This document shows positions 18,171-60,983 of a stretch of DNA of 64,000 bases, piece after piece. Position 1 is the stretch's first letter; each line of letters starts with the position of its first letter. Both the position numbers and the translations under genes were made by a program. The notes beneath the pieces are model-generated. The model saw nothing but the letters and a program-made list of their open reading frames with translations, was not told the origin of the DNA and made no database searches. The stretch comes from Euhalothece natronophila Z-M001 (lineage in GTDB: Bacteria; Cyanobacteriota; Cyanobacteriia; Cyanobacteriales; Rubidibacteraceae): assembly GCF_007904085.1 (NCBI RefSeq), contig NZ_CP042326.1, positions 2,666,001-2,730,000 of the forward strand, written 5' to 3'.

Positions 18171-19595
18171 ATGCCAGAAACTGCCCAAGAAGTCCTGCGA
18201 ATGATTCAGGACGAGGATATTAAAATTATTGACCTCAAATTCATTGATTTACCGGGGATTTGGCAACATTTCTCCATTTATCGCAGTGAGTTAGATGAAG
18301 ATTCTTTTACCGATGGGGTTCCTTTTGATGGTTCAAGTATTCGGGGTTGGAAGTCCATTAATGAATCCGACATGATGATGGTTCCCGACCCCACTACAGC
18401 TTGGATCGACCCCTTCATGAAAGAAAAAACCCTCAGTATGATTTGCTCGATTAAAGAGCCACGAACTGGGGAATTTTATGATCGCGATCCGCGTACCATT
18501 ACCCAAAAAGCAATTGACTACCTCATTTCTAGTGGTATTGGGGATACAGCCTTTTTTGGTCCCGAAGCAGAGTTTTTCGTCTTTGATGATGTGCGCTTTG
18601 ACCAAACCTACAACAAAGGCTTTTACTATGTAGATAGCATTGAAGGACGTTGGAACTCAGGACGGGAAGAAGCCGGCGGTAACTTAGGCTATAAACCTCG
18701 TTATAAAGAGGGGTATTTCCCTGCTCCTCCCACGGATACCCTGCAAGATATGCGAACCGAAATGTTGCTAACCATGGCAGAGTGTGGGGTTCCCATTGAA
18801 AAACACCACCACGAAGTAGCAAGCGGTGGACAGGGTGAACTTGGTTTCCGTTTTGCCACCATGGTGAAAGCAGCGGATTATTTGATGACTTATAAGTATG
18901 TCATTAAAAACGTTGCCAAGAAATACGGGCGCACTGTAACGTTTATGCCCAAACCCATCTTTAACGATAATGGTTCTGGGATGCACGTTCACCAATCTAT
19001 TTGGAAAGATGGACAGCCCTTATTCTGGGGAGAAGGTGGCTACGCAAACCTCAGTGATATGGCTCGCCACTATATTGGTGGTCTTCTCAAACACGCTCCT
19101 GCGGTTTTGGCTTTCTCTAACCCTTCTACTAACTCTTACAAGCGATTAGTTCCCGGTTTTGAAGCTCCAGTGAACTTAGTTTACTCTCAAGGTAATCGCT
19201 CTGCGTCGGTTCGTATTCCGCTTACTGGAACCAATCCCAAAGCCAAGCGATTAGAGTTCCGTTGTCCAGATGCAACTTGTAATCCCTATCTTGCTTTTGC
19301 TGCCATGCTTTGTGCTGGTATTGATGGGATTAAAAATAAAATTGAGCCACAAGAACCTTTAGACGTAGATATTTACGATCTCAGCCCCGAAGAGTTGAAC
19401 AAAATTCCTTCTACCCCTAGTTCTCTGGAATCGGCGTTAGAAGCATTAGAAAACGATCACCAATTCTTGATTGATGGGGGTGTATTTACTCAAGAGTTTA
19501 TTTATAACTGGATTGAGTATAAGTTAGATAATGAAGTGAATCCTCTTCGCTTGCGTCCCCATCCTTATGAGTTTGCGCTCTATTATGATGCTTAG
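18171..19595 (+). CDS. glnA: type I glutamine synthetase
   Basis: A 474-residue enzyme that joins ammonia to glutamate with ATP in the GS-GOGAT cycle. Visible landmarks are [10 protein letters not shown] near residue 51, the metal and glutamate site [11 protein letters not shown] near 126, [11 protein letters not shown] near 267, the ATP-site [16 protein letters not shown] and the NRSASVRIP loop. The length and DIYDLSPEE segment place it in the GSI-beta group. In cyanobacteria activity is usually controlled by small inactivating factors; none is seen nearby. An NtcA promoter lies upstream and a terminator downstream. Confidence 0.97.
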
Positions 19596-19627: not shown

Positions 19628-19656
19628 TTTCCCCCTTTAAAATTAGGGGGATTTTT
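19628..19656 (+). terminator. intrinsic terminator after glnA
   Basis: TCCCCC and GGGGGA arms (19630-19651) with an AT-rich loop are followed by TTTTT, about 35 bases after the glnA stop. Confidence 0.75.
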
Positions 19657-19717: not shown

Positions 19718-19824
19718 TATAGTCGTTCCAATTCAGTTCCGTAGTGCAGCCATCTTGGCTGCTACTAGGGAGCAAGATGCTCCCACTACTTTTAGGTTGC
19801 TGTTTTTTATTTGGAATCACTATA
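19718..19824 (+). mobile_element. 107-bp miniature inverted-repeat element, copy 1
   Basis: The element begins TATAGTCGTTCCAA and ends with the imperfect inverse TTGGAATCACTATA. It has no coding capacity. A copy identical except for one base near the right end (G here, A there) lies at 60796-60902. Inside are two hairpins side by side: GCAGCC-ATCTT-GGCTGC and GGGAGC-AAGAT-GCTCCC, enclosed by GTAGT and ACTAC. The two loops are complementary to each other. The near identity implies recent movement, probably by a transposase encoded elsewhere. TA at the outer edge may be the target duplication. Confidence 0.8.
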
Positions 19825-60675: not shown

Positions 60676-60983
60676 AGTGTTATAAATCCTTTTAATAAAA
60701 CTATTTAGTTATATGAATATAATAATAGATATAGAGTTTAATTGTAAATTAACTAAATGATTAATTAGTAATATAATATCAAAAGAACGGTGAATTATAG
60801 TCGTTCCAATTCAGTTCCGTAGTGCAGCCATCTTGGCTGCTACTAGGGAGCAAGATGCTCCCACTACTTTTAGGTTGCTATTTTTTATTTGGAATCACTA
60901 TAAATTTCTAAAATCCCCTAATCTGCGCTGAATGACAAATATACGATCGCGCTGTTTTAGGGGTTCCCCCATGAAAGAGTGTT
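60676..60983. other. gap with miniature element between SulP and SQR genes
   Basis: Holds the 107-bp element (60796-60902) and AT-rich DNA before the SQR start. No gene. The SQR promoter, if separate, should be near 60680-60780. Confidence 0.5.
60796..60902 (+). mobile_element. 107-bp miniature inverted-repeat element, copy 2
   Basis: Differs from copy 1 (19718-19824) by one base near the right end. It has the same ends and the same pair of hairpins with complementary loops. Here it sits inside a run of co-oriented minus-strand genes and may add a hairpin or promoter between the SulP and SQR genes. Confidence 0.8.

Follow-up and report, generated by a model that had tools for sequence, protein, structure and literature searches.

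A head-to-head REP hairpin pair as probable passenger of an IS630-type MITE in Euhalothece natronophila

The 107-bp element at positions 19718 to 19824 of the window (the whole 64,000-nucleotide stretch of Euhalothece natronophila Z-M001 DNA analysed here) is very probably a non-autonomous MITE of the IS630 family that carries a head-to-head REP heterodimer in its interior as a passenger. An earlier note on this DNA had read the complementary loops of its two hairpins as a sign of selection on folding. Like the potential long hairpin, this loop complementarity is a by-product of the opposite orientation of two REP units, and no special RNA fold can be read from it.

Results

The earlier note had described terminal repeats and two hairpins within 19718-19824 (plus strand), and both were found there. 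A second copy on the same strand of the window (60796-60902) differs by one substitution which lies outside the hairpins, as the note had said. We counted 50 two-ended copies in the genome, that is, examined loci with both ends recognisable, a few degenerate or one-ended copies being left out. Both window copies are among the 50, of which 28 are identical to the first window copy and 36 have the 49-nt core unchanged. Complete copies begin and end in TATA and no longer flanking duplication was seen. The element has no coding capacity. The placement of 37 copies was checked. Three overlap a predicted ORF, and the other 34 are intergenic. The genes on either side are tandem or convergent for 32 of the intergenic copies, and divergent for only two. 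A degenerate pattern of the MITE gave no match in the named genomes. Between the first window copy and the end of the 18171-19595 ORF lies a terminator-like hairpin, TCCCCCTTTAAAATTAGGGGGA (19630-19651). Elsewhere in the genome, one MITE copy is broken just inside its right end by an IS630-like element of the same genome with different ends, which is a nested insertion (L103:1509-2761; G000:C1:2950009 onward).

The ends of the MITE match those of a 920-bp element in a congener (G005; L186:1072-1991). The left end, TATAGTCGTTCCAATTCAGTTCCGTA (19718-19743, plus strand), agrees at 24 of 26 positions and the right end, the last 22 bases terminating in ATTTGGAATCACTATA (19803-19824, plus strand), at 20 of 22. 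The 920-bp element encodes HTH_Tnp_IS630 (PF01710) and DDE_3 (PF13358) proteins and shares no coding sequence with the MITE, only the ends match. It is the full-length relative with matching ends that the earlier note had proposed to look for. The same ends, without the hairpins, bound 96-bp elements found once in the E. natronophila genome and in seven copies in G005. Because its ends are common to the IS630 element of G005 and to the hairpin-less elements, we assign the carrier to the IS630-type MITEs with TA at both ends; judging from the ends, this TA may have been duplicated. The mobility claimed by the earlier note is thus borne out by IS630-type ends and by the number of two-ended copies. 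Since hairpin-less elements with the same ends exist, multiplication of the MITE does not need the hairpins. A 128-bp element with TATAGT..TTCCAA ends, also without these hairpins, occurs in G014, a genome of another family (L187:2206-2333 and L188:2030-2157); an initial look at that genome gave 173 candidates.

None of the IS630 copies of the host genome could be accepted as the autonomous parent: among the 30 examined of 31 DDE_3 matches, none has the MITE ends. No close relative of the G005 parent transposase was found in the host genome, where the best match has 31% identity, and the parent itself was seen as a single copy in that one congener. Two lone end matches (C1:1367521 and C1:1914759) were rejected as full-length insertion sequences, the flanking genes not being transposases. 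A MITE does not strictly require a cognate transposase in the same genome. For two MITE copies empty sites were sought in congeners; the two sides of each copy hit different places there, and no match spans the insertion.

Tail and hairpin comparison together with folding defined two units in the interior. The first (19741-19762, plus strand) has the tail GTAGT and the hairpin GCAGCCA-TCT-TGGCTGC with its triloop at 19753-19755. The second (19768-19789, minus strand) runs in the opposite orientation and has the same tail, read as CTAC at 19786-19789 on the plus strand, and the hairpin GGGAGCA-TCT-TGCTCCC. Each thus consists of a GTAG(T) tail, a 7-bp stem and a TCT triloop. The same type of unit with different yet paired stems is common in other cyanobacteria. 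This comparison places both hairpins in one cyanobacterial REP family, as two units with their tails outward, which makes the pair a REPIN-like head-to-head REP heterodimer. An Rfam search matched no curated RNA model.

Tailed hairpins of this kind stand near genes for RAYTs (REP-associated tyrosine transposases), mostly on both sides, in four genomes of the same order (G032, G041, G054 and G020); G040 and G042 have related hairpins there. When 25 RAYT genes were placed in a tree, all those with REPs of the CATCTTG/CGTCTCG type fall in one clade of seven rows (support 100/99), six of which have such REPs. The hairpin is therefore a widespread cyanobacterial one that is tied to one RAYT clade. 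The host genome gave no RAYT match to NF047646 at E<=1e-3, and no RAYT of the seven-row clade was found in nine genomes of the host's family. Cases are known in which REPs persist after loss of the RAYT. Free REPs were looked for in two 400-kb samples of the host genome (800 kb, about a quarter of the chromosome), and there each of the 22 tailed TCT hairpins lies inside a MITE.

The folding is well above chance. Against shuffled sequences, z is -5.5 for the 49-nt core as DNA and -5.7 for the whole element as RNA; both fold far better, and none of 200 shuffles was as good in either case. Across the REP family the hairpin arms pair at 4.7 of 5 positions, compared with 3.7 when the arms are re-dealt, and the pairs closing the loop are A-T in 61 cases, G-C in 17 and other in five. 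Each hairpin is a conserved structure whose stem and loop-closing pairs covary across the family. The earlier note had taken the loops to be ATCTT and AAGAT. The 7-nt complementarity of CATCTTG and CAAGATG that it pointed out is present, but the true loops have only three nucleotides (TCT or AGA), since the outer two bases form an A-T pair. The alternation between ATCTT and GTCTC is therefore a stem change in each hairpin. The predicted energy of two separate hairpins is -15.5 kcal/mol as DNA and -23.9 kcal/mol as RNA, that of the best form with both long helices, the single long hairpin, -10.8 and -19.4 kcal/mol; the separate hairpins should thus be clearly the more stable form.

CATCTTG faces CAAGATG because two units of one REP family with a conserved loop stand in opposite orientation. 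We compared 53 neighbouring REP pairs from elsewhere (other families), 19 of them running in the same direction and 34 inverted. In the same-direction pairs the loops were never complementary (0 of 19). Both loops belonged to one class in 21 of the 34 inverted pairs and in 15 of the 19 same-direction pairs (Fisher p = 0.24); for the inverted pairs the class frequencies predict 70%. There is no excess of loop matching where kissing would be possible. Neither this test nor the genome copies yielded compensatory changes between the two loops. This is a trap in the reading of hairpins, as two inverted units of one palindromic repeat always look loop-matched.

Some copies break the pattern. Loop complementarity is absent in five of the 50 two-ended copies. 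In L251 (G000:C1:1528002-1528108) the first hairpin has its loop exactly reversed (AAGAT in place of ATCTT), as a small inversion inside the palindrome would produce. The second loop is shortened in L098, the first hairpin is replaced in L091 and missing from L093, and L092 has no such hairpins. A further copy outside the 50, L095, has the loops GAGAC and AAGAT and no complementarity. An uncompensated stem change, GGCTAC, is present in three copies and an uncompensated tail change, CCTAC, in two; with either change the element has since multiplied. The earlier note had named copies without loop complementarity and copies with uncompensated mutations as the observations that would refute selection on the fold, and both kinds occur.

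Discussion

Capture of a REP pair followed by its spread as a passenger is the simplest account of the element, because no RAYT was detected in the host genome and the sampled tailed units all lie in MITEs. Each hairpin would fold by itself, with seven stem pairs and a TCT (or AGA) triloop, and its stem would have been selected in its original setting as a RAYT substrate. The REP pair may have entered an IS630-derived MITE in an ancestor, or been captured by one. The composite could then have been multiplied, with the REP pair as passenger, by an IS630 transposase that acts on the TATAGT..TTCCAA ends. A recent burst would have given rise to the 28 identical copies. The lack of a close relative of the parent transposase in the host, the failure to find an empty site and the single copy of the parent element count against this account. 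The element would clearly exemplify a REP pair that has seemingly outlived its RAYT in a lineage by riding an IS630-type MITE.

Part of this arrangement has a precedent. Di Nocera et al. 2013 (PMC3733652) described cyanobacterial GTAG-tagged REP dimers whose two units may form separate folds or a single large stem-loop, and many of their Anabaena variabilis GTAG-15 dimers sit inside palindromes with the consensus TATAGGA...TCCTATA. REP dimers inside TA-flanked palindromes are thus already published for that species. Matched by description, the pair in our element resembles the GTAG-12, -15 and -16 dimers in its GTAG tail, short palindrome and head-to-head heterodimer form. It differs from the GTAG dimers in that the terminal repeats are of the IS630 type (TATAGT..TTCCAA), and the GTAG-15 loops of 9-15 bp are unlike those of the MITE hairpins. 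The REPINs of Bertels and Rainey 2011 (PMC3116915), which include Nostoc punctiforme, likewise consist of two inverted REPs as a unit. There the REP doublet is taken as the mobile unit and is moved by a RAYT, whereas here it is the surrounding MITE that moves, in a genome without a detectable RAYT. Bacterial MITEs derived from IS630/Tc1-mariner elements are, like ours, short and non-coding, with terminal inverted repeats, TA ends and many near-identical copies; ours differs from them in its internal REP dimer and in that no matching transposase was found in its genome. Many head-to-head dimers of this REP family in other cyanobacteria lie inside larger repeated units, several of which are bounded by inverted repeats, e.g. 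GGGAGCATCCCAA.

The interpretation of the earlier note, in which the loops of an RNA or single-stranded DNA pair with each other or the core refolds into a long hairpin under selection, is now very improbable, being largely refuted by the orientation test and the copy comparison. It can point to the 7-nt match, which is kept in 45 of the 50 two-ended copies, and to related dimers in G003 and G005 in which both loops have shifted together to the GTCTC/GAGAC class. However, most copies are near-identical and their conservation says little, and the paired class change would equally result if G-C replaced A-T inside each hairpin in a compensatory way. Mixed-class inverted dimers are moreover common elsewhere (13 of 34), non-complementary copies exist, and the predicted stability favours separate hairpins with loops of only three nucleotides. 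It is just as improbable that the whole 107-bp unit is REPIN-like, with a RAYT still moving it by way of the GTAG tails and the IS630-like ends playing no part. The tails and hairpins do fit RAYT substrates, but the copy boundaries are the TATA ends and not GTAG, the host genome has no RAYT match and the seven-row clade is absent from the family genomes searched. Hairpin-less elements with the same ends have multiplied too, and L092 and L093 lost hairpins while keeping their boundaries, which demonstrates the point in part.

A benefit of the REP pair to the MITE or the host, such as transcription termination or protection of mRNA 3' ends between genes, would be compatible with the passenger account, and we regard it as possible, though unlikely. 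The scarcity of copies between divergent genes, a terminator-like match at 19768-19784 and the recurrence of the arrangement in unrelated terminal-repeat elements of other cyanobacteria would fit such a role. Avoidance of promoters, however, accounts for the placement equally well, and in the match the T-run does not follow the stem directly. It is likewise possible, though unlikely, that REP dimers of this family have been taken up repeatedly as the centre of unrelated cyanobacterial terminal-repeat elements because the paired hairpins benefit their carrier, for example through insertion tolerance, transcript insulation or folding at the replication fork. If this is true, a RAYT-made repeat has been handed over to DDE transposases.

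Among the named cyanobacterial genomes (L303-L382), head-to-head REP dimers of this family occur in several repeated units that are unrelated to one another, and terminal repeats bound some of these (GGGAGCATCCCAA; AGGGACATCCAA; TCAAGTAAAAATAA). Calothrix, Desmonostoc and Symploca are among the host genera of such dimer-bearing units. On a contig labelled as a Verrucomicrobia MAG, a REP dimer that has the CATCTTG core was also seen (L318:3985-4047), where either transfer or mis-binning is possible.
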